NCBI GenBank assembly: GCA_016219115.1
Contig: JACRCH010000123.1
Coordinates: forward strand, 1-41,597
Source of the DNA: Deltaproteobacteria bacterium
Lineage (GTDB): Bacteria; Desulfobacterota; GWC2-55-46
Direction: 5' to 3'
Length of the DNA stretch: 41,597 nucleotides
Each line of letters opens with the position of its first letter. The first letter of the stretch is position 1. The notes under the pieces were generated by a model that had not been told where the DNA came from, ran no database searches, and saw only the letters and a program-made list of their open reading frames with translations. Of the stretch, positions 6,336 to 41,137 are shown one piece after another. A program made the position numbers and the translations under genes.

Positions 6336-6437
6336 TTTTAATATTTCCTTCGGGTTGAATTAAGCGCGTCTTGCCGCGTATATAAAAACAGATCTCCCTT
6401 TGGGTACCCCGCCAGCAAGGCTTGCGGGGTGGTTCAT
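6336..6437 (-). repeat. Repeat family A, uninterrupted copy
   Basis: Reverse complement reads atgaaccaccccgcaagccttgctggcggggtacccaaagggagatctgtttttatatacgcggcaagacgcgcttaattcaacccgaaggaaatattaaaa; matches the copies at 20685 and 17479. Confidence 0.93.
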
Positions 6438-7879: not shown

Positions 7880-8198
7880 ATCAGATTAATTTCACCTGCC
7901 AGACGCCCCGTTATTTTTAAAATTAAAAACCTTGAAAATTAAACTCCGCTCTGATAAAGTGACCATCTACTAAACCCGCAAAGTTATCAACATCTGTGCA
8001 TAACCCTGTGAATAATTTCTGGCTTGCTGAGCCGTTTGCAGGTAACGGTCATTTGGATTAACACCTCATTCCGTAGAACCGCCGGCTAATAAACTACCCC
8101 GCCGAAAGCAGCGGGGTATTCTTAGAAACTCTTTTCAAAAATTTTCGCGGCAAGCCGCGCTTAATTAAACCCCGAAAGGGGATTAAAAAGTTGTTGAT
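7880..8198. other. Putative oriC portion upstream of dnaA with three clustered DnaA-box-like 9-mers
   Basis: ttatcaaca 7984-7992; tgtgcataa 7995-8003 (TTATGCACA); tgtgaataa 8007-8015 (TTATTCACA); AT-rich stretch ~7900-7960. Confidence 0.75.
8092..8188 (+). repeat. Repeat family A variant (A') ending in a GNRA-like hairpin, in the dnaA leader
   Basis: ccccgccgaaagcagcggggtattcttagaaactcttttcaaaaattttcgcggcaagccgcgcttaattaaaccccgaaaggggattaaaa; second copy at 39742-39838. Confidence 0.9.
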
Positions 8199-13994: not shown

Positions 13995-14030
13995 GTGCCG
14001 CGCTTAATTCAACCCGAAGGAAATATTAAA
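13995..14030 (+). repeat. Truncated family A repeat (3' end only) immediately upstream of mnmE
   Basis: gtgccgcgcttaattcaacccgaaggaaatattaaaa, identical to the 3' end of family A. Confidence 0.85.
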
Positions 14031-17478: not shown

Positions 17479-17688
17479 GAACCACCCCGCTGGCAAGGCT
17501 TGCGGGGTACCCAAAGAGAGATCTGTTTTTATATACGCGGCAAGCCGCGCTTAATTAAAATGCTCCGCCATAAATGACGGAGAATTTTGATGGTATGGAA
17601 GGTCATTTGTATTTGCCAGCCTTGACCCGCCGCTAAAGCGACGGGATTGCGGAGTGGCACACCCATTCAACCCGAAGGAAATATTAAA
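17479..17688 (+). repeat. Family A repeat interrupted by 111-bp module B (17557-17667)
   Basis: Left part matches 20685-20757; module B splits ..gcgcttaatt / caacccgaaggaaatattaaa. Confidence 0.93.
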
Positions 17689-17837
17689 TCCCCCGGATAG
17701 TCTTGCCGCAGGTGCGGTGGATGGAGTCAGGCAGGAGTCTTTTAACCTATTTCACGCAAAAAAGCACCAATTTTCAAAGCCCGTTGAGTTGATAAACCAA
17801 CGGCTTCGGGAAGACGGATTACCCGGCGGCCAGATCG

Positions 17838-18518
17838 TCAATAGACCCCGGTTTTTGAGGAGAGTCTTGGAAACTCGAAGTTTTTAAGCTCCTCGACCTC
17901 GAAGAGCCCCGGGTATTTAGCGTCCTCGAGGAGTATCTTTCTGACATTGCCCTGCCAGAGCGAGATAAACAAGTCCTTCTGTTCTTTCGTGGCTACACCT
18001 CTTAGCACGAGCGGCACAAGGTCGTTCATCCTCGGGTCGCCCGAAAGCGCCTGAGGGTTGTAAGTGACCTTGACTGTTTTTCCGTTGTCTTCCCTCTGGA
18101 AGATGTAGGTGTTGAACTGCATGTCTTCAGAGTCGAAGAAGAGTTTGTTGTCCCTGCCGTGTCTGCCGCCGAGGCCCTTGAAGCCTGTCACGCCGGCGGC
18201 CCCGGTTATAAGGGAGATGACTTGGGATTGGGGTCCGTAGGCGAGGTCCGTCGGCCCGCCTTTTATTAAGACCTTTATCTGGCCCCTTGTGGGGAGCTCA
18301 TCCCCGTAGAGGGCTTTAAGCGCCTTTGCCGTTACCTTATAGGCCCCTGAGACCGCCGGGCAGGAATGACCGGCCAGGAGCACCGCGTCGGTGTAGTTGA
18401 AGACAAACGGTTCTCCTTCGTCCTGCGCCCCGAGTATGTAGGCTAACGGGTCTTTGAGCTTTATCGGCTCGATCTCCTCAAAGAAATCCTGACGCCACGC
18501 GGTTGTCTGCTTTGCCAT
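17838..18518 (-). CDS. FmdE-like domain protein
   Basis: ~226 aa; GHSCPAVSGAYKVTAKALKALYG resembles the FmdE GHxCPG motif; RBS aggag before MAKQTTAW. Confidence 0.6.
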   Translation of the reverse strand: MAKQTTAWRQDFFEEIEPIKLKDPLAYILGAQDEGEPFVFNYTDAVLLAGHSCPAVSGAYKVTAKALKALYGDELPTRGQIKVLIKGGPTDLAYGPQSQVISLITGAAGVTGFKGLGGRHGRDNKLFFDSEDMQFNTYIFQREDNGKTVKVTYNPQALSGDPRMNDLVPLVLRGVATKEQKDLFISLWQGNVRKILLEDAKYPGLFEVEELKNFEFPRLSSKTGVY

Positions 18519-18578
18519 AACATAAACTCCTGATATTTTCACTCTAAAGGTTAGTAGTAAAAGAAGGAAGTATATCTG

Positions 18579-18621
18579 ACAGGATGCTGAAAAAGTCCTT
18601 CCCGGATTTTTTCAGCCACGA
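18579..18621. repeat. CTGAAAAAGTCC..GGA(C/T)TTTTTCAG inverted repeat
   Basis: acaggatgctgaaaaagtccttcccggattttttcagccacgac, near-identical at 41067-41107. Confidence 0.85.
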
Positions 18622-19222
18622 CCGGCTAAACTCATCTGTAGATATTCTCTTTTTGACATAGCCACGATAGCATTTCCCTTTCCGCTTTTCCAGGCGTTGC
18701 ACTTCGTTATTGAACCTGCGATATTAAAAAAGTATAGCAGTTTTTCCGGCCTCCTCACCTTTCACCTCCTTAACTTTTTTGAATTTCATCCGAAGAGATT
18801 ATTAAGTTTACTTAAACGCTTATTCGCCGAAGCCTGGCTATCGAGCAGTTTGTGAAAAATTTACCGGTTGCTCCCCGCGGTCTGCCGCTGATAGGTTTCA
18901 TTGAGATTTATCTGCGCTATTTTTGCAGATGTTAAAACTGCTGTCACTGATAAATATCTGCTTTTCTGATTTTTTATCGAGGGGTTTTTGAGAAGAGCAA
19001 CAAAGCCCGTAGCCAAACCGGAGAAAGCATACCAGAATGATGCCACCCGCTCGCCAGACCGGAATTTAAAATAATCCAAAAAAATGTAAAGATTTTGCTT
19101 GACGAAAGTTAAATTTACTGATAAACATAAATTTAAACTTGTCTCTAGTCCATTTTTAACCTTAGCATAAGCTTTAATAACGAATTTTACATCGTTTTCA
19201 TATATATGGGAGCAAACACAAG

Positions 19223-19492
19223 GTGGGAATCAGAACACCAGAACTATTGGCCAAGATCGATATTCCAAGACAAAAGCTTTATTATCTTGAGCAAAAAGGC
19301 TTTATCAGCCCAAAAAAGACCGTAATCGGCGAAAAGGAGTTCAGGGAGTACTCCGAGGAGGATGTAAAAAAGGTCGAATACATCTGGAAATACCTCAAAA
19401 AGGGCTTTAAATATAAGATAGCTTACGCAAAGGCGATGGAAGAGTTGGCGAGTCCGCAGTTGGTCTTCACAAAAACAGAAAAGCCCGCATAA
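19223..19492 (+). CDS. MerR-family transcriptional regulator
   Basis: 89 aa with MerR HTH: IDIPRQKLYYLEQKGFISPKKT..FREYSEEDVKKVEYIWKYLKKGF. Confidence 0.8.
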   Translation: MGIRTPELLAKIDIPRQKLYYLEQKGFISPKKTVIGEKEFREYSEEDVKKVEYIWKYLKKGFKYKIAYAKAMEELASPQLVFTKTEKPA

Positions 19493-19510
19493 AAGGGTAG
19501 GAGGAAACAG

Positions 19511-20680
19511 ATGGAAGAGCTTTCGATAAGCTCTGAACCCCCCAGTACGAATTTAGCTACAAAGCTAAAGTCGGAGTTAGCCGAATTGATTGAGTATCCG
19601 GGCAGCCGTCCCGAGTACTGGTATGACTGGAAATGGCAGCTTAAAAACAGGATCACCTCCCTTGAAGTAATACGCGACCTCATCCCTCTGACAAGAAGAG
19701 AGGAAGAAGGCATTAAACGCGCGTCCGGCCGCCTGGCAATGGCCATCACACCATACTTTTTTTCATTGATAGACAGACAGGACCCAAGGTGTCCCATCAG
19801 GAAGCAGGCCGTCCCGAGGCTCGAGGAGTTCAGCGTATCCTCATGCGAGCTGGTAGACCCATGCGGAGAAGACAGCCATTCCCCGGTACCAGGACTTGTC
19901 CACAGGTACCCTGACAGGGCCCTTCTCATAGTCACGGATTCATGCGCCATGTACTGCAGGTACTGCACGAGAAAGCGCATGGTGGGAGAAGAGACCCCCC
20001 CGATGTCCATCGAGAGGTTCGAGGACACCTACAAATACATCAAATCGAAGAAGACCATAAGGGACGTGCTCATCTCCGGCGGAGACCCCCTGATGATGAA
20101 GTCCGAGGTCCTCGAGAGTTACCTGAAAAAGCTCCGTTCAATACCCCATCTGGAGATCATCAGGATAGGCACCAGGGTCCCGGTGACCCTGCCGATGAGG
20201 GTGAACGCGGAGCTTGTCGATATGCTCAGGAAGTACCATCCGCTCTACATGTCTATACACTTCTCGCATCCCAGGGAGATCACCCCCGAGGTTGCTAAAT
20301 CATGCGGTATGCTCGCTGACGCGGGTATTCCGCTCGGCAGCCAGACGGTGCTTTTGAAGGGCGTAAACGACAAGCCGGCCACCATGAAGAAGCTGATGCA
20401 CGAGCTCTTGAAGGTCAGGGTCAGGCCCTACTACCTCTACCAGTGCGACATGGCTATGGGCACGGCCCACTTCAGGACCCCGGTCTCGGTAGGCATGAAC
20501 ATAATGGAGGAGCTTAGAGGCCACACCACCGGATACGCCGTTCCGACATTCGTGGTGGACGCGCCCGGCGGGGGCGGCAAGATCCCGGTGACCCCGACTT
20601 ATCTCCTGTCCCAGGCAAAGGGAAGGGTAACGCTCAGGAACTACGAGAACAAGATATACAATTACACAGAGCCGGATTGA
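19511..20680 (+). CDS. kamA: KamA-family radical SAM protein (lysine 2,3-aminomutase-like)
   Basis: CAMYCRYCTRKRMVG radical SAM motif; VLISGGDPLMM; YYLYQCDMAMGTAHFRTPV; VDAPGGGGKIPV. Confidence 0.92.
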   Translation: MEELSISSEPPSTNLATKLKSELAELIEYPGSRPEYWYDWKWQLKNRITSLEVIRDLIPLTRREEEGIKRASGRLAMAITPYFFSLIDRQDPRCPIRKQAVPRLEEFSVSSCELVDPCGEDSHSPVPGLVHRYPDRALLIVTDSCAMYCRYCTRKRMVGEETPPMSIERFEDTYKYIKSKKTIRDVLISGGDPLMMKSEVLESYLKKLRSIPHLEIIRIGTRVPVTLPMRVNAELVDMLRKYHPLYMSIHFSHPREITPEVAKSCGMLADAGIPLGSQTVLLKGVNDKPATMKKLMHELLKVRVRPYYLYQCDMAMGTAHFRTPVSVGMNIMEELRGHTTGYAVPTFVVDAPGGGGKIPVTPTYLLSQAKGRVTLRNYENKIYNYTEPD

Positions 20681-20684
20681 CCAT

Positions 20685-20784
20685 GAACCACCCCGCAAGC
20701 CTTGCCAGCGGGGTACCCAAAGGGGAATCTGTTTTTATATACGCGGCAAGCCGCGCTTAATTCGACCCGAAGGAAATATTAAAA
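20685..20784 (+). repeat. Family A repeat, uninterrupted, starting 5 nt after the kamA stop
   Basis: tgaaccaccccgcaagccttgccagcggggtacccaaaggggaatctgtttttatatacgcggcaagccgcgcttaattcgacccgaaggaaatattaaaa. Confidence 0.94.
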
Positions 20785-20848
20785 AGGCCCTCCCCGATTT
20801 TTTACCTGACCTTCATCCGCGCAGGGGTATGGGAAAAGGAGGCAGACG

Positions 20849-21046
20849 ATGGCGAAGGAAAAGACCTTCAGCGAATATACCGATACGAACCAGTATCTCT
20901 ACAGGTGGCTTGCCGAGAAGCCGCCTGAGAAGAAGAGCGACAGGTCCTTTGAGATAGACCTGGACAAGAGGCTCGATACCATCTTGACCGCTCTCCATAA
21001 GGCTGAAGAGTCCAATGTCATAAGGCTTAAGCAACGCAAAAAGTAA
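20849..21046 (+). CDS. Conserved-looking small hypothetical protein
   Basis: 65-aa charged ORF with strong RBS aaaaggaggcagacgATG. Confidence 0.7.
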   Translation: MAKEKTFSEYTDTNQYLYRWLAEKPPEKKSDRSFEIDLDKRLDTILTALHKAEESNVIRLKQRKK

Positions 21047-21077
21047 GAGAGGGGCTCACCGGTCCCGATTGGCGTCC

Positions 21078-21182
21078 GTAAAAGCCGGTTTGGCTGTTTT
21101 TGATTGATTTTCAATGTCTGAATAGGGTATATTTGAACATTGGACATCAGTCGAAAATAATCAAAACCGGCTTTTTGCCGTA
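21078..21182. repeat. ~105-bp imperfect inverted repeat in the pyrE leader
   Basis: aaaagccggttt..tttttgattgattttcaatgtc vs gacatcagtcgaaaataatcaaaaccggcttttt. Confidence 0.75.
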
Positions 21183-21197
21183 ATAAGGGGTGTATTT

Positions 21198-21842
21198 ATG
21201 ACTATCGATATGGAACATCAGGTAATGGACCAGGACTATAAAAAGGAGCTTCTCGACATCCTTTACGCCCGGAGCTTCAAGTACGACCCGGATCAGGGCT
21301 TCACGCTCACCAGCGGCAAGAAGAGCGATGTATACATCGATGTGAAGAAGACAGCAATGAGCGCCGAGGCGATGGAGCTTATAGGGTTCACCTACTTCAG
21401 GGAATTGAAGCTAGAGCCTATCGACGCCATAGGCGGGATCACCCTCGGGGCCGACCCGATAGCCTACGCCGCGGCCCTTGTGTCCACCATGAACGGCAAG
21501 TACCTCGACGCCTTCGTCATAAGGAAGGAGCCCAAGAAGCACGGCACCATGCAGTGGATAGAGGGCAATGTGAAGGAGGGCGCCTGGGTATGCATCGTAG
21601 AGGATGTCGTCACAACCGGAGACTCCACGATAAAAGCCGTCGAGAGGGCGCGGGAAGCGGGCCTCCAGGTGAGAAGGGTGCTCGCGCTTGTGGACAGGGA
21701 AGAGGGCGGGGCCGAGAACATCAAGGAGAAGGCCAGGGTCAGGTTCGACGCCATCTTCACCAAGACCGAGCTCATGGAGCTCCACAAGAAGTACAACCCG
21801 AAGAAAGAAGAGAAGAAGCTCCCTGAAAAACCTGTCTTCTGA
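21198..21842 (+). CDS. pyrE: Orotate phosphoribosyltransferase
   Basis: 214 aa; PRPP-binding VCIVEDVVTTGDSTIKAVE. Confidence 0.92.
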   Translation: MTIDMEHQVMDQDYKKELLDILYARSFKYDPDQGFTLTSGKKSDVYIDVKKTAMSAEAMELIGFTYFRELKLEPIDAIGGITLGADPIAYAAALVSTMNGKYLDAFVIRKEPKKHGTMQWIEGNVKEGAWVCIVEDVVTTGDSTIKAVERAREAGLQVRRVLALVDREEGGAENIKEKARVRFDAIFTKTELMELHKKYNPKKEEKKLPEKPVF

Positions 21843-21968
21843 GATAACGATATACCCGACGGGGCGGCAAAACCCCGGACTTTACATACCATCACAAAGA
21901 AAATATGGACTTGAAGAAAGGCTGTACTTGAAAAGGTAGGGCCTTTCTTTTTTGAAGGAGACCCCGAT

Positions 21969-22718
21969 TTGAAGCTCGCGCCTAAAGACCGGATAATATT
22001 CGCGCTCGATGTGCCCACTACCAAAGAGGCCGTCAAATACATCGACCTTTTAAAAGACCATGTCGGGGTCTTCAAGATCGGCCTCGAACTCTTCGTAGCC
22101 GAGGGCCCGCGGGTCGTCGAGGCCGTTAGAGAACGGATGGGTCCAAAGGGTATATTCCTCGACATGAAGTTCCACGACATACCCGCAACCGTCAAAGGCG
22201 CAATGAAGTCGGCCTCGAAGCTCGGCGCAAAGTTCGTCACCGTACACTGCGACGAGGGGAGGGGGCTTCTTAAGGCAGTAGTCGAAGGCAACACCGGGGG
22301 AACGAAGGTTTTAGGCGTGACGGTTTTGACGAGCCTCTCGGCTGAAGACATGCACGATGCCGGCATTGACCCGAAGAAATACAAGACCCCGGCAGACCTC
22401 GTTCTAAAGAGGTCTGAGCTCGCCAAAGCCGCCGGATGCGCCGGGGTCGTTTGCTCAGGGCAGGAGGCCGCCGGAGTCAGAAAAGAGTTCGGAGAGGACT
22501 TTATAATAGTGACCCCGGGGATAAGGGGGCCGAACGACCCCGTAGGCGACCAGAAGAGGGTGGCCACCCCCTACGAGGCTATCACAAACGGGGCCGACTA
22601 CATAGTCGTCGGCAGACCCATAAGACAGGCCACGGACCCTGTAAAGGCCGCCTCCGCGATAGCAGCGGAGATAGAGAGGGCGGTCAAGGACAGGGGTACT
22701 GGCGTACGGCGGGTTTAA
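21969..22718 (+). CDS. pyrF: Orotidine 5'-phosphate decarboxylase
   Basis: 249 aa; IIFALDVPT, GIFLDMKFHDIPATVKGA, FIIVTPGIR, DYIVVGRPI. Confidence 0.95.
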   Translation: MKLAPKDRIIFALDVPTTKEAVKYIDLLKDHVGVFKIGLELFVAEGPRVVEAVRERMGPKGIFLDMKFHDIPATVKGAMKSASKLGAKFVTVHCDEGRGLLKAVVEGNTGGTKVLGVTVLTSLSAEDMHDAGIDPKKYKTPADLVLKRSELAKAAGCAGVVCSGQEAAGVRKEFGEDFIIVTPGIRGPNDPVGDQKRVATPYEAITNGADYIVVGRPIRQATDPVKAASAIAAEIERAVKDRGTGVRRV

Positions 22719-22913
22719 AAGCTGACAGTATACCCACCAACGAGCCTGTGCAAAATAAAGTTATGTTAAATTGCCGACCGCACGGTGGGAACGAGCGGGG
22801 TGGGGGAGGCTGAAAGCGAAGCGAACACTGCGCCAAAAAAGCGCACGGCAGGGCGCAAAAGTATAAAACCAAATACACGATTTTTTCATTCTATGCAAGT
22901 CACTCAACAAAAA

Positions 22914-22941
22914 AAGGGTCCGATCTTTCGATCGAACCCTT
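22914..22941. terminator. Hairpin, possible terminator
   Basis: aagggtccgatc tttc gatcgaaccctt, one mismatch, flanked by A-tract. Confidence 0.5.
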
Positions 22942-23014
22942 AATCCTTCTTCTCCGTATCTTCGCTTTTTGCTTTCCTGTCCGCACGGGACCCGGTATCA
23001 CACGAGTTCGGCGT

Positions 23015-23104
23015 TCAGGAGGGCGCTCCCATCTTCGGGAGCACGTACATATTGACTATAATTATCAGGACGAAAACCCCTATCGTTATAAGTATATCTC
23101 TCAC
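23015..23104 (-). CDS. 29-aa single-pass membrane microprotein (absent from ORF track)
   Basis: MRDILITIGVFVLIIIVNMYVLPKMGAPS, GTG start preceded by taggagg with 8-nt spacing. Confidence 0.6.
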   Translation of the reverse strand: MRDILITIGVFVLIIIVNMYVLPKMGAPS

Positions 23105-23193
23105 GGTCAAGGCCTCCTAACTAACCCCTATGATAACAAAAATCCTCATGTGACTCAAGCGGGATCTCCTTCGTTTTCTGACCACCCCCCCAT

Positions 23194-23230
23194 GCGGGTT
23201 CAGGTTTGCAACCTGAACCCTGATATTTTG
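23194..23230. repeat. GGTTCA..TGAACC palindrome with conserved flanks
   Basis: gcgggttcaggtttgcaacctgaaccctgatattttgt; compare 16028-16065. Confidence 0.8.
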
Positions 23231-23582
23231 TTAGTGCTTAATCGATTGGAAAAGACATAATCCTGCCACTGTGCGAAAGAGCTTTTTCCGCACTGCCGTG
23301 CGGTTCCTGGGGGTAGGGTTCTGGCCTTTCTGCCTCCCCGCCCCGTGCGCTTCGCCCGCTTAACCGCTGCGCTTAATTCCTCCCCGCTCGCGCACCACCG
23401 TGCGGTGTCCAATTTTAAATAACTCCATCTGGCACATCGTTAGCGGATATACGGTCGGCTTTTATTGCGCCGTACGCCAGTACCCTCACCCTACGCCCCG
23501 CCGGGTTTATTAAAGACAAGGCAAAAAAGGTGTTCTTAGTCATAATGTCCCCAGGCAGAGCCGGGGGTTTGCCGGTTTTTAA

Positions 23583-24329
23583 CTATTTTTCTCCCTGCCT
23601 CTTTTTCGCGTACCCGAGGTAGTTTACCGTGGTATCGTTAGATATCTTGAACTCAAGTTTGAAGGGGTCGTAACTCATCCCCTTAAGCTCCATTATCTCC
23701 ACCCCGTTCTCTTCCAGAATATCCTTCAACACCGAAGGCCGCACAAACTTCCGGTAGTCGTGCGTGCCCCTGGGGACCATCCCAAGAAGGTCCTCGGCGA
23801 CGAATATCGCTAAGAACCTCGACTTCATCGTCTTATTGAGCGTCCCGAAGAAGAAGAGCCCGCCGGGCTTCAACATCGAAAGAGAGTCTTTCAGAAACGC
23901 ATTGAGGTCGTCTACATGCTCCAACACCTCGGCGCAGACGATGATATCGTATGCCTCGCTCTTCTCAGGCGCGAGTTTGGAGGGCGACGAGACCCTGTAG
24001 TCTATCGAGAGGCCGGCATCGAAGGCGTGCTTCCCGGCGGCCTCTATCGCCACGGGCGAGAGGTCTATGCCGGTGACTGAAGCCCCGGCCCCGGCGAACT
24101 TCTCGGCAAGGAGTCCGCCGCCGCAGCCGATATCGAGGACCTTCTTATCTTTCAGCTCCCCTGCCGCGCCCGAGAAGTAATCGAACCTCAGGGGGTTTAT
24201 CCGGTGGAGCGAAAAGAGCTTGCCAGTGGGGTTCCACCACTCCTGCCCGTATTTTTCAAACTTTTCGGATTCGGTCGTCATCGGTCTCTCTTTTTTATTT
24301 TCTCTTAGGGTAAATACTCCGCTAGCCAA
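23583..24329 (-). CDS. ubiG: UbiG-like 3-demethylubiquinone-9 3-O-methyltransferase
   Basis: KKVLDIGCGGGLLAEKFAGAGASVTGIDLSP; EVLEHVDD; real start probably MTTESEKFEKYGQEWWNPTGKL. Confidence 0.88.
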   Translation of the reverse strand: MASGVFTLRENKKERPMTTESEKFEKYGQEWWNPTGKLFSLHRINPLRFDYFSGAAGELKDKKVLDIGCGGGLLAEKFAGAGASVTGIDLSPVAIEAAGKHAFDAGLSIDYRVSSPSKLAPEKSEAYDIIVCAEVLEHVDDLNAFLKDSLSMLKPGGLFFFGTLNKTMKSRFLAIFVAEDLLGMVPRGTHDYRKFVRPSVLKDILEENGVEIMELKGMSYDPFKLEFKISNDTTVNYLGYAKKRQGEK

Positions 24330-24555
24330 GCCGCGTTCTTACAAAGGAGTCTTTTTGCACGCTGCCGCGCGCCTCGGGGTATTGCTCCGCTTGATGACGA
24401 GCTTGCCCGCAATGAGGAACCGGGGCAAGCTTGGCACTCTCTCCTTTATCGCTACGCAAAACCCCTGGTATTCTGTTTAAAGAACAAAATACAAAAGTAA
24501 CACCAGCAATGATGTTGGATATTATAAGATACCCCGTAATAAGGCTTGTGAGGGG

Positions 24556-26010
24556 TTACTCTATCCCGTAGTCCTTCCACTTCGAGTTCACAAGCTCGAC
24601 GATCTCTTTGGTCATCTCCATCCGCTCTCCCCATTTGCGAGTGACCTCAGGCGGCGCCTTCGCCGTGGCGTCTATGCCCATCTTGCTCCCGAGGTTCTCC
24701 AGAGGGGATGAGAAGTCGAGATAGTCTATCGGCGTGTTTTCTATCAGCAAGGTGTCCCGCTTCGGGTCCACCCTTGTTGCTATCGCCCAGATGACATCGG
24801 CCCAGTTGTGGACATCTATGTCGCCGTCCACGACGATGATGTACTTCACGTACATGAACTGCTTGAGTATCCCCCAGAGCCCGAGCATGATCCTTCTGGC
24901 GTGGCCGGGGTATTCTTTCTTTATCGAGACTACGGCGATCCTGTAGGAGACCGCCTCCATCGGGAGGCTGAAGTCCACGACCTCCGGGAACTGGAGCTTC
25001 AGCGACGGCAGGTACATCTTGTTGAGTATCGTCCCTATGACCGCGTCTTCCTTCGGCGGCCTGCCGGTGATGGTCGTCAGATAGAGCGGGTCTCTCCTGT
25101 GCGTTATCGCCTTCAGGTGAAATACCGGGAACGGCTCGGCGGCGTTGTAGTAGCCGGTGTGGTCGCCGAACGGGCCTTCAAGAGCCGTGTCCGCGTGGCG
25201 TATCTCACCTTCGAGGACTATCTCGGAAGAGGCCGGGACCTTCAAGGGCACGGTCTTGCACTCGACAAGTTCAATGGCTTTTTTCCTCAATACCCCGGCG
25301 AAGTGGTACTCACCGACGTCCTCGGGCACGGGAGTAACTCCGGCGATGGTCGTAGCCGGGTCGCACCCGATGGCCACGGCCACCGGCATGGGTCTGCCTG
25401 TCGCCTCCCATTGCCTCTGGTGCGCGGCGCCGCCCCGGTGCTTGAGCCAGCGCATGATAGCCCTTTTCCCGTCGAGGCGCTGCATCCTGTAGACCCCGAC
25501 ATTGAACGGGCCGCCGTTGGGGCTCTGCGTGACGACAAGCGGCCAGGTGATAAGCGGGCCGGCGTCGCCGGGCCAGCACTTTATTACGGGAATGGCGGAG
25601 AGATCCGGGTCGTCGGTGTTGACGACCTCATGGCAGACCGCGCTTCTTACCGTCTTGGGGCCGAGTGTCAGGATCTTACCGAAGTAGGGGATCTTTTTGA
25701 CCGCGTCCCAGAGCCCCTCGGGAGGCTGCGGCCTCTGGAGCGCCGCTATGAATCGGCCGATCTCTTCTATCTCTTCCTCCTCGACGCCGAGGCCGAGGGC
25801 GACCCTTTCGCGGGTGCCGAAGAGGTTTCCGACGATGGGTATCTTCGAGCCTTTTATATTTTCAAGGAGAACGGCGGGGCCGTTTCTTCGCACGAGCCTG
25901 TCCATGATCTCGGCCGCTTCGAGGTCCCTGTCGACTTCAGTCGCCACCCTTTTGAGGAGCCCCTTTTTTTCGAGGTCCGCCAGAAATTCCCTCAGGTCGT
26001 TATAGGCCAT
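24556..26010 (-). CDS. ubiD: UbiD-family 4-hydroxy-3-polyprenylbenzoate decarboxylase
   Basis: 484 aa; MAYNDLREFLADLEKKGLLKRV; NVGVYRMQ; GPFGDHTGYY; VVDGDIDVHNWADVIWA. Confidence 0.94.
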   Translation of the reverse strand: MAYNDLREFLADLEKKGLLKRVATEVDRDLEAAEIMDRLVRRNGPAVLLENIKGSKIPIVGNLFGTRERVALGLGVEEEEIEEIGRFIAALQRPQPPEGLWDAVKKIPYFGKILTLGPKTVRSAVCHEVVNTDDPDLSAIPVIKCWPGDAGPLITWPLVVTQSPNGGPFNVGVYRMQRLDGKRAIMRWLKHRGGAAHQRQWEATGRPMPVAVAIGCDPATTIAGVTPVPEDVGEYHFAGVLRKKAIELVECKTVPLKVPASSEIVLEGEIRHADTALEGPFGDHTGYYNAAEPFPVFHLKAITHRRDPLYLTTITGRPPKEDAVIGTILNKMYLPSLKLQFPEVVDFSLPMEAVSYRIAVVSIKKEYPGHARRIMLGLWGILKQFMYVKYIIVVDGDIDVHNWADVIWAIATRVDPKRDTLLIENTPIDYLDFSSPLENLGSKMGIDATAKAPPEVTRKWGERMEMTKEIVELVNSKWKDYGIE

Positions 26011-26025
26011 TTTTATTCTTCCCTT

Positions 26026-26910
26026 TTATAGGTTGAGGTCGATGAGTATGAAAACGAGTATGAAGCCGCCGACGACTGCGTTACCGATGAACCCCCTGAA
26101 GGCCGCCTCCCTCGTAGGGTTCTTTTTAAGGTGCGCTGCCATCCGGAGAAACGCCCCGAGCGAGATCAGGACCCCGGAGTAGTAGACCAAGCCCAGACCG
26201 CCGGCAAAACCGGCGGCCAGGAGGAACGCGGCTGTAAGCAGATAAAGGAGCGTCAGCGCGAGATAAACTTTCTTGCCGAAGAATATCGCCGTTGATTTGA
26301 CCCCGATCATCAGGTCGTCCTCCATGTCCATGAGCGCGTATATCGTATCGTAGGCCGTCGACCAGAAGATGTTTGCCGCGAAGATCAAGAGCGGGACCGC
26401 TCCGATAGAACCCGTGACGGCCGACCACGCCATCACGGAGCCCCAGCCGAAGGCCATGCCGAGGACCACCTGCGGGAAGTGACTCACCCTTTTGACGAAC
26501 GGATAGAGGCTCGCAAGCAGTATCCCGACGACCGACAGAATGACCGTTAGCGTGTTCAGGAAGAGTACAAGCGCGAAGGCCAGGGCCGACAGAGTCACGA
26601 AGACGATGGCGGCTTCTTTGACCTTCAGTCTGCCGTTGGCCAGAGGCCGCGTCCTTGTCCTCTCCACATGCGGGTCGAAGTTCCTGTCCGCGATGTCGTT
26701 TATCGCGCACCCGGCGCTGCGCATCAAAAAGGTCCCGAGGATGAATATCGCGAGGAGCTTTACCGTTGGGACGCCTGCCGAGGCGATGAAAAGCGACCAG
26801 AGCGTGGGCCAGAGCACTAAAAGAGTGCCCTGCTGTTTGGGCAGCCTAATGAGGTCCGATACCGCGGAGATTTTTTTTATCGTAACGGCGTTGGCGTTCA
26901 TGTTTTTCAA
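26026..26910 (-). CDS. ubiA: UbiA-family 4-hydroxybenzoate polyprenyltransferase
   Basis: SAGCAINDIADRNFDPHVERTRTRPLANG; ALMDMEDDLMIGVKSTA; multiple TM helices. Confidence 0.94.
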   Translation of the reverse strand: MKNMNANAVTIKKISAVSDLIRLPKQQGTLLVLWPTLWSLFIASAGVPTVKLLAIFILGTFLMRSAGCAINDIADRNFDPHVERTRTRPLANGRLKVKEAAIVFVTLSALAFALVLFLNTLTVILSVVGILLASLYPFVKRVSHFPQVVLGMAFGWGSVMAWSAVTGSIGAVPLLIFAANIFWSTAYDTIYALMDMEDDLMIGVKSTAIFFGKKVYLALTLLYLLTAAFLLAAGFAGGLGLVYYSGVLISLGAFLRMAAHLKKNPTREAAFRGFIGNAVVGGFILVFILIDLNL

Positions 26911-26950
26911 TCTTCGGCGGCGTTTGACAGCCCGGTCCGTCGAGCGGTTT

Positions 26951-27613
26951 TTAGAAGAATTTATCCGCGGACGCCCGTAACGCCCCGAGCTTGATCCCCT
27001 TTGTGAAATCGCTTGTCACCAGTCCGGGGCTGAATATCTCGGTCACCGAGGCCTTGATGATCCATCCGCTGGCGGCTTCCCTGTTCGAGAGTATATACCT
27101 TCTGGCGATAAAGGGTGTGGAGGCCGGGGCGCCGAGGTCTTCGGCAGCGGTCGGGCACCTGACTACGCCGACCTCGAGCTTCTCTTTAGTGAAAAATATC
27201 CTGTTCGCGTTGAGCACCCTGCCCAATGGTTCGTTGGCGTATCTTTCGAGCTCTTCTTTAAGCCCCCCCTCTATGCAGGAGAGCGGTATCAGCGTGTGGG
27301 CGTAGACGAGCCTCCTGTTATCCACCGTGAGCCAGACCTCGCGCTCCATCGCCTCCTCGCCGGGTTTTTCTTCCAGATAGGACGCGTCTTCGGCCGGCAG
27401 AGGGCTCGTGCCTTTGAACCGCACCTCTACCCCTACCTTCGAGTTGTACAGGAGTTCGAGGTCGAGCGTCATGGAGCCGTCCGAGAGGAGCAGCAGCTTC
27501 TGGTGCGGGAGTATTCCGTCGAGCTCGGGCCGGTCCCTCTCAAGATCGGCCCTGAACCAGTCCCGAAGGAGCGTATACGAGAACCTTATCGTCATAAGCC
27601 CTGAAATTACCAT
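26951..27613 (-). CDS. Chorismate lyase-like (UbiC/DUF98-type) protein
   Basis: 220 aa; YAHTLIPLSCIEGGLKEELERYANEPLGRVL; adjacent to ubiA; start may be the internal MTIRFSY. Confidence 0.75.
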   Translation of the reverse strand: MVISGLMTIRFSYTLLRDWFRADLERDRPELDGILPHQKLLLLSDGSMTLDLELLYNSKVGVEVRFKGTSPLPAEDASYLEEKPGEEAMEREVWLTVDNRRLVYAHTLIPLSCIEGGLKEELERYANEPLGRVLNANRIFFTKEKLEVGVVRCPTAAEDLGAPASTPFIARRYILSNREAASGWIIKASVTEIFSPGLVTSDFTKGIKLGALRASADKFF

Positions 27614-27700
27614 ATAGAATGGCTTTGGTCAATAAGCTATAGCGCGCCAGGGGCGGGTTGTCCGCGGAGGAAAAATCCCGCACCCCGGCGCCGGGCAAAA

Positions 27701-27737
27701 AAATACCGCGCTTAAAAGAGCTTTAAACGCGGTATTT
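27701..27737. terminator. Hairpin upstream of the ubiC-like gene
   Basis: aaataccgcgcttaaaagagctttaaacgcggtattt inverted repeat. Confidence 0.6.
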
Positions 27738-27774
27738 CAAGCCTTTAATTTGTAATTCCGTGTAGCTTTGCTAC

Positions 27775-28060
27775 AGGGTTCCATCTAACCCCGCCTTGAC
27801 GGGGGAGATTTTGATACCCTGCGGCAAGGCTTGCAGGGAGGTTTATTTAGCCGTCAAAACACCAGACTCCTGTCTGGTGATGAAGAGGCTGTCCGAAGGA
27901 CCCAAGCCGAAGGCTTGTAACCAAAGAAACCGCCGACTCCTGTCGGCGGAGGTTCACTCTCTCTCAGTGTTGATACCCCATAGTCCGCTACGACTATTTG
28001 GATCCGATGTCCTTAAGATACCCCGGATACCCCGCAGTTTGCTGCGGGGAGGTTCATTGG
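27775..28060. repeat. Cluster of small perfect hairpins
   Basis: ccctgcggcaaggcttgcaggg, caccagactcctgtctggtg, ccgccgactcctgtcggcgg, ccccgcagtttgctgcggggaggttcatt. Confidence 0.85.
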
Positions 28061-28067
28061 AAGTACC

Positions 28068-28562
28068 TTAGTTCTTCGTTTCTTTTTCCTGCTCGGTGTA
28101 CGCCTTGGGAGCCGGCATCTCGGCAGCCTTCAGGAACGCGTCCACGCTGTACTTGATGGCGGCCGCCGTACTCTGGTTCGTGCCGCGAAGTATCTTCAAG
28201 AGCTTTCCGACATAGATGATCTCATCCGGGCTCAAGCCGCCCATGTCGCCGGGGGTCCTCTGGTGGTACCCTTCCTTGCCGTAGGCCGAGGTGTCTTCGG
28301 CGGCTATCATGTATGTCTTTCTCTCAAACTCCCCGCCGCGCCCGGCCTTGTACATCTCGCCGTCGCCGGATATAAGCCAGTCCACGGAAAGACCGTAGAT
28401 GTTGGCAAACCTCAAGACCAGGTCTGTCGGCATCTCGCCCCTCTTCTTGTAGTTGGAAAGCGCCTGGGGTGTGACTCCAAGAACCCTGGCGACGGCCGAG
28501 TCGTTTTTAAGCTTTCCGGCCCATCTCATCCTCTCGATAATTTCTGCATAACTTACGCCCAT
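28068..28562 (-). CDS. Phage CI/XRE-like helix-turn-helix regulator
   Basis: 164 aa; DSAVARVLGVTPQALSNYKKRGEMPTDLVLRFANIYGLSVDWLISGDGEMY. Confidence 0.8.
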   Translation of the reverse strand: MGVSYAEIIERMRWAGKLKNDSAVARVLGVTPQALSNYKKRGEMPTDLVLRFANIYGLSVDWLISGDGEMYKAGRGGEFERKTYMIAAEDTSAYGKEGYHQRTPGDMGGLSPDEIIYVGKLLKILRGTNQSTAAAIKYSVDAFLKAAEMPAPKAYTEQEKETKN

Positions 28563-28951
28563 CGCGACCCTCTCCTTACTTTATAAAAGTTTTAAAGTTT
28601 TTGTAATACGCCTATCCTGCTGACTCATCCAGCCGTGATGCGCACAACTATCGGATCTGTGAATAATAACCAGAGTAATATAGATAGCATATCGTGCCTG
28701 CGGGCTCGAGTGAGGGGATGAAACGGGGCATTTCCGTACATTGACAACTATTCAGAAAACTTCGAGGATTTTAGAAATAGCCGGGTTTTTCTCACACTGC
28801 GTTAAGCCGGAATAGCTCGCTTGCACTAATTGTAAACCTTTTGGCAAACCATGTCAATAGGCATTTATCGACATTTTTCAATTTTATCATCAGGTTAAAA
28901 CAAGTTTTTAAATGCCTGATGCCGAAAAAGATAGTGGCGATCCGTCCGAGA

Positions 28952-29392
28952 CTATCTCTCAATCGCTTCTTTTGAACGATTGTTCCAGTTTTGCAGTTTT
29001 TCCTTGTAGTCAGCGTAGTCATCGGCCTGGGAACGAAGGACTATTGTCAGGTCATTGACGAGGTCGTCGAATTTCGCGCTATCTTTTTTGAAGATTCTTT
29101 TGTCCTTTTCCGACATATCGTTGAGTCTCTCGCAGTTCCTGTAGACTATATCATCGATCCTTTGCGCAATGCGGCTCGTCTCATGGAGATCAAAGAATGC
29201 GGCGTTTATCTTCTGCTGAGTCATTTCCGTCTTTACTCCCTTTATCTCAACGGGCAGCATCATGTCGTCTTCCCCGCCCCTGCCGTAGACCTCGAACACC
29301 ATCGGCCTGACGCAGACCTCGGCACAGGCGGTAAGAAACAAAGGCAATAAAAGAAGAAAGAACAGGGAATGTATCCTCTTCACGACATTCAC
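28952..29392 (-). CDS. Predicted lipoprotein of unknown function
   Basis: Signal peptide and lipobox LFLTAC; 146 aa. Confidence 0.65.
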   Translation of the reverse strand: MNVVKRIHSLFFLLLLPLFLTACAEVCVRPMVFEVYGRGGEDDMMLPVEIKGVKTEMTQQKINAAFFDLHETSRIAQRIDDIVYRNCERLNDMSEKDKRIFKKDSAKFDDLVNDLTIVLRSQADDYADYKEKLQNWNNRSKEAIER

Positions 29393-29533
29393 TCCGGGTA
29401 GAGTCGCTTATCTTGTAAAGGTAGAAATCTACACTTTTTAAAGTACTTTTGCAATAGAGTTTTCTCATGGAGCAGGTTGAGGCCGGGCAGCGCGTCGGGC
29501 CTGGAGCGAGGGAGCTGTCGATGGTTGGTTGTA

Positions 29534-29608
29534 TGGTGGGCGGTACAGGGTTTGAACCTGTGACTTCCACCGTGTGAAGGTGGCACTCTGCCGCTGAGTT
29601 AACCGCCC
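29534..29608 (-). tRNA. tRNA-Val (anticodon CAC), CCA encoded
   Basis: gggcggttaactcagcggcagagtgccaccttcacacggtggaagtcacaggttcaaaccctgtaccgcccacca folds as a cloverleaf with CAC anticodon. Confidence 0.94.
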
Positions 29609-29704
29609 GGAGAGGACTGAAAAGTATATTGGATAATATAGTAACTCCTTTGTAAAGTCAAGTTTGACCTTGTAAAAAAGCCCAAAAAAAGCTATATTAT
29701 TATA

Positions 29705-30133
29705 ATGAGAATAATGGGTCTGGACCTCGGAAAAAAGACTATAGGCGTCGCCGTGAGCGATGAGACGGGCCTTACCGCCCAGCCGGTAACGACTATAAAG
29801 AGGGTTTCGTTGCGGAAAGACCTTGATCAGCTCTCAAGACTTATCGGGGAGTACGAAGTCACGGGGGTGGTCGTCGGACTACCCGTAAATATGAACGGCT
29901 CCATGGGACCTGCCGCCGAGTCCGTCTTCAAGTTCATCGAGAACATTCAGGAGAGGACCGGGATCACGGCGGAGACCTGGGACGAGAGGCTTTCAACGGC
30001 CGCCGTCACGAGAGTCCTTTTAGACGGCGACATAAGCAGGTCGAGGAGAAAAGAGGTGGTTGACAAGATGGCCGCCTCGTACATACTCCAGGGATACCTC
30101 GACAGGGCCTTGTGCGGCAATAGCGCCGTTTGA
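29705..30133 (+). CDS. ruvX: Putative pre-16S rRNA nuclease (RuvX/YqgF)
   Basis: MRIMGLDLGKKTIGVAVSDETGLTAQPV; VVVGLPVNMNGSMGP; TWDERLST. Confidence 0.95.
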   Translation: MRIMGLDLGKKTIGVAVSDETGLTAQPVTTIKRVSLRKDLDQLSRLIGEYEVTGVVVGLPVNMNGSMGPAAESVFKFIENIQERTGITAETWDERLSTAAVTRVLLDGDISRSRRKEVVDKMAASYILQGYLDRALCGNSAV

Positions 30134-30277
30134 TCCGTCCTTTTTGGGCCGGATACTCTCTGAAGTGCGCTTTCCGTATTAATGAAACCTACCCGCGGCA
30201 AGCCGCGGGGTTCCGTCGGCATGCCCTTCAAAAACTGCCCGATAGCCAGGCTTCAGCGAATTTAACGCCGCAGACAA

Positions 30278-30488
30278 TAAACCACCCCGCAAGCCTTGCC
30301 AGCGGGGTATCGAAGGGAGATCTGTTTTTATATACGCGGCTCGCCGCGCTTAATTAAAATTCTCCGCCATAAATGACGTAGAATTTTGATGGTATGGAAG
30401 ATCATTTGCATTTGCCAGCCTTGACCCGCCGCTAAAGCGACGGGATTGCGGAGTGGCACACCCATTCAACCCGAAGGAAATATTAAAA
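30278..30488 (+). repeat. Family A repeat interrupted by module B (30356-30466)
   Basis: Same nested architecture as 17479-17688; module B also 111 bp. Confidence 0.93.
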
Positions 30489-30570
30489 CAACCCTTAACT
30501 TCCGCAGGCTCCGTCCGATAGATATTATATACAGGGGAATATCGCTCTGCGCATTTCAAACTTACTCAAG

Positions 30571-31608
30571 ATGCCCAAACGGATAGAAAAGACAGTTTTT
30601 CTTATACTCGTCGCCCTCGTCGTAATCTCCACGCATCTCTATATTACATTTTTCACGCCCGCTTCCCGCGAGGGCGGGGCGCGTACCGTCTATATCCAGA
30701 AAGGCACTGGTTTCCGCATGGTTGCCGAAAACCTGGAGAAGGCCGGGGTCGTGCGCGACGCCGAGAGCTTCATATACGCGGCCCGTCTTTTAGGCGCCTA
30801 CAAGAAGGTGCAGGCCGGAGAGTACGAGTTCGACAGATCCATGACCCCGCTTGAGATACTCAACGCGCTCACCAAAGGCAAGGTCAAAAAGCATCTCGTC
30901 ACCATCCCCGAAGGATATAATATCCAGGAGGTGGCCGAGGTATTGAGCGAGGAGGGGCTGGCCGACCCCGGGGATTTCACTGCCAAAGCGACCGACAGAT
31001 ACTTTGTGGCAACCCTCGGGCTTGAAGGCCGGACACTCGAAGGGTACCTCTTCCCCGACACCTACTCGCTCACAAGGGGGATGACAGTTGAGGAGATAAT
31101 AACGAAGATGGTCGATAAGTTCAAAACGGTCTATACGGCCGAGTTCGACTCTGCCGCAAGGGCAAAAGGGATGTCCATGAGGACGGTCGTGACGCTGGCC
31201 TCGATCATCGAGAAGGAGACCGGGGCGCCCGAAGAGAGGGACCTGATCTCCGCGGTCTTCCATAACAGGCTTAAAAACAGGATAAAGCTTCAGAGCGACC
31301 CGACGGTCATCTACGACATAAAGGATTTTGACGGCAACCTTACGAAGAAGCACCTACTGGCAAAGACGCCGTACAATACCTATGTCAACTACGGCCTGCC
31401 CCCGGGCCCTATCGCGAACCCCGGCAAGGCATCGCTTAAAGCGGCGATAAGCCCGGCTCGCGCCGACTACCTCTACTTCGTCTCCAGGAACAACGGCACC
31501 CATCAGTTCTCATCGAGCCTCAAGGACCACAACAGGGCCGTAGACTCCTTCCAGCGTAAACACAGAACAAGGTCATCGCCCACGGCAGCCGCTTCGCCGA
31601 AGAGCTGA
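30571..31608 (+). CDS. mltG: Endolytic transglycosylase MltG
   Basis: 345 aa; LEGYLFPDTYSL; ASIIEKETG; LQSDPTVIYD; YNTYVNYGLPPGPIANPG. Confidence 0.96.
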   Translation: MPKRIEKTVFLILVALVVISTHLYITFFTPASREGGARTVYIQKGTGFRMVAENLEKAGVVRDAESFIYAARLLGAYKKVQAGEYEFDRSMTPLEILNALTKGKVKKHLVTIPEGYNIQEVAEVLSEEGLADPGDFTAKATDRYFVATLGLEGRTLEGYLFPDTYSLTRGMTVEEIITKMVDKFKTVYTAEFDSAARAKGMSMRTVVTLASIIEKETGAPEERDLISAVFHNRLKNRIKLQSDPTVIYDIKDFDGNLTKKHLLAKTPYNTYVNYGLPPGPIANPGKASLKAAISPARADYLYFVSRNNGTHQFSSSLKDHNRAVDSFQRKHRTRSSPTAAASPKS

Positions 31609-31647
31609 AGAGAACCTTATTGAAAAGTCCTGGCGGACGGCGAAAAT

Positions 31648-31800
31648 GAACCACCCTGATAGCCAAGCTCCGGGGTATCACTTTAAGCCTCCCCTCCCGT
31701 TGCGCTCTTCCGGTGCAACGGGAGGGGAGGGGGGGTGAAAACATTTTTTCACACCCATCCTCCCCCATCGAGGGGGAGGGTTTTACAAGGGCTTACCTAC
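31648..31800. repeat. Family C composite hairpin repeat
   Basis: gaaccaccctgatagccaagctccggggtatc..cctcccctcccgttgcgctcttccggtgcaacggga..cattttttcac..tcccccatcgagggggagggttttacaagg. Confidence 0.9.
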
Positions 31801-32181
31801 CCTGTTGGTTTTTATTCTTTTGCCATATAGAAAAATTTATTCTGCCTGATCCACGCAAATCACAAAATCTGTCCTCTTGACTTGCTGAAAGCCAAAGGGA
31901 TACTTTGTCTTCCTTTAGCACAGCTAACAACTCCAAATTTTTAACTATGAAATCAACAGGGATACACAAGAGATGAAAATCCCGCCTATTTTCATCTTGG
32001 CACAGAAGATTTATCGTTTGGCATCTTTTTAGTTTGCTAAGAGGAATTCGTGAAACCAACTGGGGCATTTGGGCCATGATTCTTCAGTGGTATAAAATTT
32101 AGAAACCGCAGTACATTCTGGCGATATTTCTTCAAAATGTCTTTTTGCATAAGATAGTCCATCTTTTCTTGTTTCATTCAT
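31793..32181 (-). pseudogene. Frameshifted small hypothetical gene
   Basis: RBS gggag and ATG 32181 (MNETRKDGLSYAKRHFEE..CPSWF); reading resumes in another frame as SRIPLSKLKRCQTINLLCQDENRRDFHLLCIPVDFIVKNL. Confidence 0.6.
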
Positions 32182-32218
32182 AATTATCTCCCTTAGTAAT
32201 GTTTTTTTAGTTTTTTTG

Positions 32219-32329
32219 AATGGGTGTGCCAGCCGCAATCCCGTCGCTTTAGCGGCGGGTCAAGGCTGGCAAATACAAATGATCTTTCCATACCATCAAA
32301 ATTCTCCGTCATTTATGGCGGAGAATTTT
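32219..32329 (-). repeat. Standalone module B (111 bp), outside any family A repeat
   Basis: Reverse complement aaaattctccgccataaatgacggagaattttgatggtatggaaagatcatttgtatttgccagccttgacccgccgctaaagcgacgggattgcggctggcacacccatt. Confidence 0.93.
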
Positions 32330-32540
32330 AATCTTTCCTTGAGCGCATTTCAGCTATCTTATCAGTTATCTCTTTAACTTGTAATTCCACGTGGTCTTGC
32401 TCTACGGGGTGAGTATTTGTAGTATACAGGAGGCATGAGTGAAGGGCAAGCTACAGTGAATTTTGTGATTAAAGTTGCCCCATTTTCCTGACCGGACTTG
32501 GTCGGCAGATGGTCGTTTTGAAATCCGCCGACCGCCGGGT

Positions 32541-33560
32541 CTAGAATATCTTTCCCTTGAAGCCTTTCGAGACGGTCACCCTGCCGTTTGAGTCGACTAT
32601 TACGGCTTCGACCTTATCGAGACTTTCGACCAGTTCCATCCCCTTGACCGGCCCCATCACAAAGACCGCCGTAGAGAGGGCGTCCGCCGTTGTCGGGTCC
32701 CCTGTGACTATCGTGACGCTTGAGCACCTGTTGGCCGGAAAGCCAGTGGCGGGGTCGAGTATGTGGTGGTACCTTACGCCGTCTTTGATGAAGAACCTTT
32801 CGTAGTCGCCTGATGTGGCAACGGCGCCGTTCAGGAGATGTACCTCGCCGAGCAGCTTTTTCTCCCGCGGGTGCTGTATGCCGACGGTGAAGGGGATATC
32901 AGTCCCTGTCTGGAAGACGGTCATATCGCCCCCGGCGTGTATTATCCCGCGTTTCACCCCCGCTTTTTTGAGCGCCTCCACGGCCCGCCCGACAATATAG
33001 CCTTTGGCTATTCCACCGAGGTTCAGGACCATCCCCTTCTCTTTAAGTCCCACGGACGACCCTGCCTCATCGACGGCTATCTTCCGGTAGTCCACGAGCT
33101 GGAGCGACCTTCCGACCTCTTTTTTCCCCGGCACTCTTCCCTTCTCGCCGGAGTAGCCCCAGACCATTCCGAGCGCGCCGACGGTCGGGTCGAAGGCCCC
33201 GTCGGAGAGCCTCGCGACCCTGACGGCCTCCGCTGTCACTTTCAGGAGATCGGGGGAGACCTTGACCATAGAGCCCGCCGAGGCCGAGACCCTCGACACG
33301 TCGCTGCCGGGGTTATAGGTGCTTAATAGTCTCTCCAGCCTCTTTATTTCGTCGAAGGCCGCTTCAGCCGCCCTCTCATGTTTCGCGGAGCCCCCGTCCA
33401 TGATGGTGACCTCGACGACGGTGCCCATGAGCATCTTCATGTAGGTCACGCTCTCGGCGGGTCTCTTGTGAAGGAGCGATACGAGCAGCAGCGCGAAGAC
33501 CGGGATGATGACGGCGGCGTAGGTGAGGTAGTTAAATTTTTTTTTCGAGGGAGTCTCCAT
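32541..33560 (-). CDS. apbE: FAD:protein FMN transferase (ApbE)
   Basis: 339 aa; MGTVVEVTIMD; LNLGGIAKGYIVGRAVEAL; HILDPATGFPA; TADALSTAVFVMG. Confidence 0.94.
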   Translation of the reverse strand: METPSKKKFNYLTYAAVIIPVFALLLVSLLHKRPAESVTYMKMLMGTVVEVTIMDGGSAKHERAAEAAFDEIKRLERLLSTYNPGSDVSRVSASAGSMVKVSPDLLKVTAEAVRVARLSDGAFDPTVGALGMVWGYSGEKGRVPGKKEVGRSLQLVDYRKIAVDEAGSSVGLKEKGMVLNLGGIAKGYIVGRAVEALKKAGVKRGIIHAGGDMTVFQTGTDIPFTVGIQHPREKKLLGEVHLLNGAVATSGDYERFFIKDGVRYHHILDPATGFPANRCSSVTIVTGDPTTADALSTAVFVMGPVKGMELVESLDKVEAVIVDSNGRVTVSKGFKGKIF

Positions 33561-39741: not shown

Positions 39742-39838
39742 ATGAACCACCCCGCAAGCAGCGGGGCATTCTTAAAAACTCTGTTCAAAAATTCTCGGGG
39801 CAAGGCGCGGGGAATTAAACCCCGAAAGGGGATTAAAA
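39742..39838 (+). repeat. Family A' repeat ending in CCCCGAAAGGGG hairpin
   Basis: Close match to 8092-8188. Confidence 0.9.
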
Positions 39839-39881: not shown

Positions 39882-40078
39882 ATTCCCTGTAGCCTGCTAC
39901 AGGATTTCCTTGTAAAATCCTCCCACTCGATGGGGGAGGGCAGGGTGGGGGTGAAAAAAATGTTTTCACCCTCCCCGCTTCCCGTTGCATCGGAAGAGCG
40001 CAACGGGAGCCCAGCCCTCCCATCAAGGGAGGGGAGGTTTAAGGAGATACCCCGGAGCAAGCTCCTGGGTGGTTCATT
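39882..40078 (-). repeat. Family C composite hairpin repeat, inverted
   Basis: ttttcaccctccccgcttcccgttgcatcggaagagcgcaacgggagcccagccctcccatcaagggaggggaggtttaaggagataccccggagcaagctcctgggtggttcatt. Confidence 0.9.
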
Positions 40079-41065: not shown

Positions 41066-41066
41066 C

Positions 41067-41107
41067 AGGATGCTGAAAAAGTCCTTTCCGGACTTTTTCA
41101 GCCACGA
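41067..41107. repeat. CTGAAAAAGTCC..GGACTTTTTCAG inverted repeat, downstream of ilvE
   Basis: acaggatgctgaaaaagtcctttccggactttttcagccacgac; compare 18579-18621. Confidence 0.85.
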
Positions 41108-41137
41108 CCTGTACGAAGTGAACCTTCGGACATTGGG

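Follow-up and report, generated by a model that had tools for sequence, protein, structure and literature searches.

The stretch of DNA analyzed here, hereafter the window, covers 41,597 nucleotides of contig JACRCH010000123.1 (assembly GCA_016219115.1) from an uncultured groundwater bacterium labelled Deltaproteobacteria, and it carries two dispersed hairpin repeats, which we call A and B, the second of which is found inside the first. B occurs three times in the window. Two copies are nested in A, at 17554–17664 and 30353–30463 (both on the minus strand), next to the target ATTCAA at 17665–17670 and 30464–30469, respectively, which reads TTGAAT on the functional strand. The third copy stands alone at 32222–32332 (plus strand), inverted relative to the nested copies, with its TTGAAT target at 32216–32221 and with flanks unlike A. 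ATT lies on each side of all three copies, as an earlier note on this DNA had observed, and this repeated ATT makes a second reading of the boundaries equally valid (17557–17667, 30356–30466 and 32219–32329). On recheck, the coordinates given in that note, the 111-bp split of A and the inverted standalone copy were all correct.

The two interrupted A copies (plus strand) consist of a left part at 17479–17553 with a right end at 17665–17689 (ATTCAACCCGAAGGAAATATTAAA), and of a left part at 30278–30352 with a right end at 30464–30488. Two uninterrupted copies, already recognized earlier, lie at 6336–6437 (minus strand), where the empty TTGAAT site is present, and at 20683–20784 (plus strand), where the site is mutated to ATTCGA; the orthologue of the latter in a congener (genome G001) is devoid of A and keeps the flanking TTTAAAA. 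A tail-only A junction without B at 13999–14030 (plus strand; CGCGCTTAATTCAACCCGAAGGAAATATTAAA) had been missed. Among the A and B repeats of the window, repeat arms are 96–98% identical over 47–175 nt.

The host metagenome-assembled genome (MAG; G000) amounts to 2.3 Mb in 143 contigs and is 89% complete. B is repeated in it far beyond chance: a 22-base core, allowing up to three mismatches, gave 97 matches at 88 or so sites, while the reversed control pattern gave none. The 86 copies from the first rounds of collection are alignable over their whole length. Among 77 end-to-end copies of the host, 32 have A on both sides, another 16 have A on one side and, opposite it, a contig end or different sequence, and 25 clearly stand alone; the A junction without B was found 39 times. 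Overall, about 42 B copies are nested in A and about 25–30 are standalone. This census is a lower bound because many B copies sit at contig ends, and the A and B repeats probably also account for contig breaks in the MAG. The copies across the genome, the copies of B outside A and the empty-site orthologues in a relative were thus all found, and the presence of empty, filled and standalone sites bears out the earlier view of B as a non-autonomous mobile element. Strongly diverged relics of B in the host (L239:13055, L239:5950, L255:17233, L256:17536 and L248:18937) point to a long history of activity.

Beyond the host, B is spread across the genera of one family. It is present in 12 of 30 related genomes, every carrier belonging to the same taxonomic family, and was seen in none of the 11 genomes representing other families of this order. 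When 84,980 species were scanned with the right-hand hairpin, 27 loci were returned, nearly all of them in NC groundwater MAGs labelled Deltaproteobacteria; a few were elsewhere. No match to B was obtained among phages, plasmids and viral contigs, on which basis a phage or plasmid origin was rejected, and no known RNA family in Rfam fits B, the only hits being chance microRNA matches below gathering.

B has a net length of 111 bp and no protein-coding content. Along the functional strand, which is the minus strand for the copies at 17554 and 30353 and the plus strand for the one at 32222, the (T)TGAAT target is followed by GGGTRTGCC, hairpin 1, AAATAYAAATGATYNTTCCNTACCATC, hairpin 2 (AAAATTCTCC..GGAGAATTTT) and AAT, after which the flank resumes. 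What is inserted reads GGGTRTGCC...AATTTTAAT, the far end being AAT; in the copy at 17554, the TTGAAT target precedes GGGTGTGCC..hairpin..hairpin..TTTTAAT. Hairpin 1 stands on the foot GGGTRT and hairpin 2 on CCATC. Terminal inverted repeats are absent from B, its ends (GGGTGTGCC.. and ..AATTTTAAT) being unrelated.

Strong compensatory change preserves both hairpins. In an alignment (A1) of 34 diverse copies, standard pairs occupy 90.4% of the hairpin cells, changes on both sides are seen at 13 hairpin pairs (6.4 in shuffles) and the covariation score is 0.207 (0.094 in shuffles). None of 500 shuffles reached any of these measures, and sliding the pairing partner by 1–3 columns, which served as a control, destroyed the signal. 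Different lineages carry, for example, the stem variants GCCAGCC/GGCTGGC, GCCCGCC/GGCGGGC, GTCCGCC/GGCGGAC, GCTCGCC/GGCGAGC and GCCTGCC/GGCAGGC. One stem difference, ggctggc versus ggagtggc, had been described in the earlier note as a disruption shared by the nested copies and absent from the standalone one. The difference is real, but it does not separate the two classes cleanly: AGTGGC and CTGGC are found in 25 and 7, respectively, of the copies with A on either side, compared to 8 and 17 of the standalone copies. Rather than a disruption, this stem is more plausibly a chimera between two B subfamilies, in which the 5' arm GCCAGCC is combined with the GGAGTGGC 3' arm of the GCCACTCC...GGAGTGGC subfamily. 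Indeed, the intact stem pair GCCACTCC/GGAGTGGC is found in copies of G001, and both arms also occur in one host copy (L217, contig C93). Such chimeric stems show that B copies recombine, and both subfamilies are found inside as well as outside A.

The mode of insertion can be read from the comparison with G001, which is about 87% identical to the host in genes and provides filled/empty pairs in both directions. The cleanest sites (L169 and L170) are both G001 insertions that the host does not have. At L169, GTAGAAT[B]TGACCC in G001 corresponds to GTCGAAG-TGACCC in the host, with flanks of equal length; at L170, GAG[B]ATTCATCGGG corresponds to GAG-AGTCTACGGG, and ATTCA of G001 faces AGTCT of the host, which has no copy of B. 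A further G001 copy, on contig C121, has no host counterpart, the host sequence at that place being TTGATAAACC, and at the window sites 17479 and 30278 both A and B are missing in G001. The insertions of B are thus real, and the element has been active since host and congener split. The two sites thus assign ATTCA (TGAAT on the other strand) to the native flank, which has equal length in the empty orthologues; the TGAAT side also stands in empty A copies as native sequence. In terms of the functional strand, B therefore follows (T)TGAAT directly on the 3' side. The right pentamer in the host is almost always ATTCA, with a few instances of GTTCA and ATTTA.

The ATT on the two sides of B had been interpreted as a possible target duplication. 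However, the left trinucleotide is independent of the right flank in every genome group: left and right match in 55/72, 8/17, 1/18 and 6/18 cases in the four groups, for 52.4, 8.0, 0.6 and 5.8 expected under independence. Since the matches equal this expectation, ATT is not a target duplication. In genome G012, ATG or TTG predominates on the left, and ATT or ATA is found on the right. A classical miniature inverted-repeat transposable element (MITE), moved by a DDE transposase and generating a 3-bp ATT duplication, is accordingly highly improbable. ATT does flank most host copies on both sides, as such an element would require, but the two do not co-vary, other lineages carry different left trinucleotides and terminal inverted repeats are missing. 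Insertion by a recombinase, for instance of an IS110-like or integrase-like type, would make ATT a shared crossover core and the far-end AAT the property of the element. This would explain ATT (AAT) at both ends and the lineage-specific far-end copy, as for an element-derived core, and the lack of terminal inverted repeats would fit as well. Yet in G012 such a core would differ between the ends (ATG versus ATT/ATA), and the target side reaches as far as TGAAT, longer than a three-base core, so that we regard this mode as doubtful.

The use of the target is far from uniform. TTGAAT sites were tallied over 441 kb of the host that are essentially unselected, with one copy reassigned to the A class by eye. 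B occupies none of the 104 such sites in coding sequence, 3 of the 27 that are intergenic outside A and 8 of the 18 that lie in A (Fisher p=7e-7 for intergenic against coding sites and p=0.014 for A compared with the remaining intergenic sites). A thus supplies a site where insertion is tolerated, and B occupies it about fourfold more often than intergenic sites elsewhere. An in-frame coding insertion of the type known from Rickettsia was rejected, as none of the coding sites is filled. The sole apparent coding insertion of B is a copy with a 5-bp internal duplication at L158:3773–3893, which lies in a GGDEF gene remnant and is crossed by the reading frame; its G001 counterpart is an intact GGDEF gene without B.

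A shares the anatomy of B, with TTAAA as its native flank. At the A site 20683, G001 without A shows TTTAAAATGCC and the host A meets TTAAAAAGGCC, which assigns TTAAA to the target of A. Beside its end hairpin, A holds a TTGAAT that offers B a landing site, and the orientation of B within A is constant because this target is strand-specific. The earlier note had taken the stem change shared by the two nested window copies as a sign that A and B spread together after insertion, and a composite unit whose parts were later scrambled by gene conversion would fit several observations: AGTGGC is commoner in nested copies (25/32 versus 8/25 standalone, p=0.001), chimeric stems make recombination between copies evident, and A and B are missing together in G001 at both window sites. 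Still, 16 nested pairs whose B copies are less than 1% apart reside in A halves that are 7–30% apart (mean 0.197, versus 0.187 for all pairs), and no nested pair is near-identical in both B and A. Filled and empty A copies are also intermixed, the nearest neighbour being in the same state in a proportion of 0.51 versus 0.50 expected, and both B subfamilies occur on either side of the A boundary. Divergent A around near-identical B, together with this intermixing, favours repeated independent insertions of B, combined with recombination between copies, as the best explanation of the nesting, and on these sequence comparisons the composite unit appears unlikely. What weighs against our reading here is the low power of the tests directed at the composite unit. 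A and B distances are uncorrelated (Mantel r=-0.01; trimmed r=0.12, p=0.20), but so are the halves of B (r=0.13, p=0.15) and the halves of A (r=-0.01) that served as positive control; the Mantel test has little power and was not used as proof. The uncorrelated halves suggest heavy recombination among copies, and gene conversion could blur a common history of A and B.

Taken together, we propose that B, a non-autonomous element of about 111 bp, is probably similar to the palindrome-associated transposable elements (PATEs), with an anatomy in the style of IS200/IS605, and moved in trans. A one-sided pentamer, hairpins, no duplication and no inverted repeats make a single-strand IS200/IS605-style route the best fit to this anatomy; we infer the mechanism, and one expected correlate, a lagging-strand bias, is missing. 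A transposase of the HUH type (IS200/IS605-like) would read the hairpins and move B in trans in single-stranded form, as has been proposed for PATEs; the insertion itself takes place directly 3' of TGAAT and leaves no target duplication. The TTGAAT beside the end hairpin of A would then serve as a landing site for repeated independent insertions.

Several further points count against this proposal. Insertion of IS608 and ISDra2 is directed to the lagging strand (PMC6006769), whereas the orientation of B shows no bias relative to local GC skew (12/21 copies, skew being a proxy only). The two hairpins of IS608 are the same in sequence (PMC7290912), and hairpins 1 and 2 of B differ. At the foot of hairpin 1, no clear guide complementary to TGAAT is evident. 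No transposase able to move B was found in the 89% complete host MAG. The Y1 domain (PF01797), the RAYT model (NF047646) and the TnpB domain (PF07282) had no match there, and a TnpB-only IS605 element was rejected on the last of these; an IS91-type Y2 transposase was rejected as well, as PF04986 had no match in the host in a search that was run without a positive control. Nor was a transposase gene seen between matching ends of B half-copies in the DNA examined.

The hairpins, the intergenic location and the high copy number of B recall repetitive extragenic palindromic (REP) sequences, which would be moved by a REP-associated tyrosine transposase (RAYT), and the earlier note had proposed such a link. 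RAYT genes do exist in the family, above the NF047646 cut-off in G006, G009 and G013 and in partial form in G001 and G012; the latter two are rich in B and hold RAYT-like fragments only. These RAYT-like genes, L216 (G001:C137) and L215 (G012:C13), are cut by a contig end or degenerate, and the one in G001 is preceded by GGGTTCAGGGTTGCACCCTGAACCC. However, the host itself has no recognizable RAYT or Y1 gene, the presence of B is not associated with that of Y1/RAYT across genomes, and the Y1/RAYT loci of relatives, scanned for B ends, have none, their RAYTs being flanked by other hairpins (e.g., CGGGTTCAGG..CCTGAACCCG and CGGGTTCAGGTTGCAAACCTGAACCCG). A transposase with flanks matching B was thus encountered neither in the host MAG nor at the Y1/RAYT loci of its relatives. 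In addition, B is a two-hairpin unit of 111 bp rather than a 20–40 bp REP and misses the canonical foot tetranucleotide GTAG/GTGG (PMC6006769). We therefore consider a REP/RAYT origin quite unlikely. A more speculative possibility, to which we give some but limited weight, is that A and B are both moved by an unrecognized enzyme that places hairpin DNA beside a one-sided pentamer, in a host without a recognized IS200/IS605 or RAYT enzyme. B would then use A as a reserved safe harbour and behave as a hyperparasite of another small mobile element.

The window contains other repeats besides A and B. Two relatives of A on the plus strand lie at 8096–8188 (ACCCCGCC..CGCGCTTAATTAAACCCCGAAAGGGGATTAAAA) and, 87% identical to it, at 39746–39838. 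The window also holds dnaA (8199–9545) and may therefore be close to the origin of replication. A dispersed repeat (ATACGGTCCGGCGAATAGGTCGC...) forms a 91-bp tandem duplication, with 47-nt copies that are 100% identical, and partial copies (1–138, 3650–3700 and 32479–32541). Another dispersed family of hairpins, in which CTCCCGTTGCGCTCTTCCGATGCAACGGGAG precedes GTGAAAACATTTTTT and CCCTCCCCCATCAAGGGGGAGG, is found at 3437–3607, 31694–31793 and 39938–40069, and a hairpin repeat GATGCTGAAAAAGTCC..GGACTTTTTCAGC has two copies (18570–18623 and 41056–41109) that are 93% identical. The repeat at 23188–23541 has many copies of 75–90% identity in G001. A third repeat (..GCAAGCTACAGGGAATTTTGTG), located at about 32440–32475, adjoins with its end the ATTAAAA start of B in L029, L047, L049 and L077, and takes the place of the left hairpin of B in two chimeras (L045:1729 and L064:639).

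The pair A and B is real and family-wide; these transposase-free hairpin elements represent a new family within a general kind that is already known. PATEs are defined by the lack of terminal inverted repeats, by near-terminal palindromes, by the absence of target duplication and by a terminal oligonucleotide that belongs to the target and not to the element (PMC3119063). B shows each of these features: no inverted repeats, palindromes near both ends, no duplication and a target-derived terminal oligonucleotide. Like the PATEs of Haloquadratum walsbyi, it is too short for a transposase, has its target oligonucleotide on one flank only and occurs in many copies with strain-specific insertions. 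In H. walsbyi, the palindromes match those of resident IS605-type transposons (PMC3119063), whereas the hairpins of B differ and no IS200/IS605 gene was found in its host; kinship with IS605-type palindromes is not apparent at any Y1 locus of the relatives, none of which has B ends, nor in the 89% complete host MAG, in which PF01797 and PF07282 have no match. B resembles IS200/IS605 elements such as IS608 and ISDra2 in its subterminal hairpins, in inserting 3' of a fixed sequence of four or five nucleotides and in the lack of inverted repeats and of duplication, but it carries neither tnpA nor tnpB, and neither a lagging-strand bias nor a guide was detected. REP and REPIN sequences with their RAYT (TnpAREP) are likewise dispersed, intergenic, hairpin-forming and non-autonomous, but B differs from them in lacking the GTAG/GTGG foot, in its longer two-hairpin unit with defined junctions and in having no link to any of the RAYTs found.

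With A and B, the range of PATE-like hairpin elements free of a transposase comes to include an uncultured lineage from groundwater that is labelled Deltaproteobacteria. The exact junctions, the filled and empty orthologues and the covarying hairpins allow the one-sided target rule to be tested. The closest counterpart for the nesting is SMR-A of Haloquadratum, which measures about 110 bp, prefers insertion into PATEs and is mobilized in an enigmatic way (PMC3119063). SMR-A resembles B in size, in the lack of duplication, in reaching up to about 50 copies, in its preferred spot inside another small mobile element and in its enigmatic enzyme, but has prominent terminal inverted repeats where B has none and carries two subterminal hairpins instead. 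The dense nesting of B in A is thus a bacterial parallel to the SMR-into-PATE nesting in Haloquadratum.

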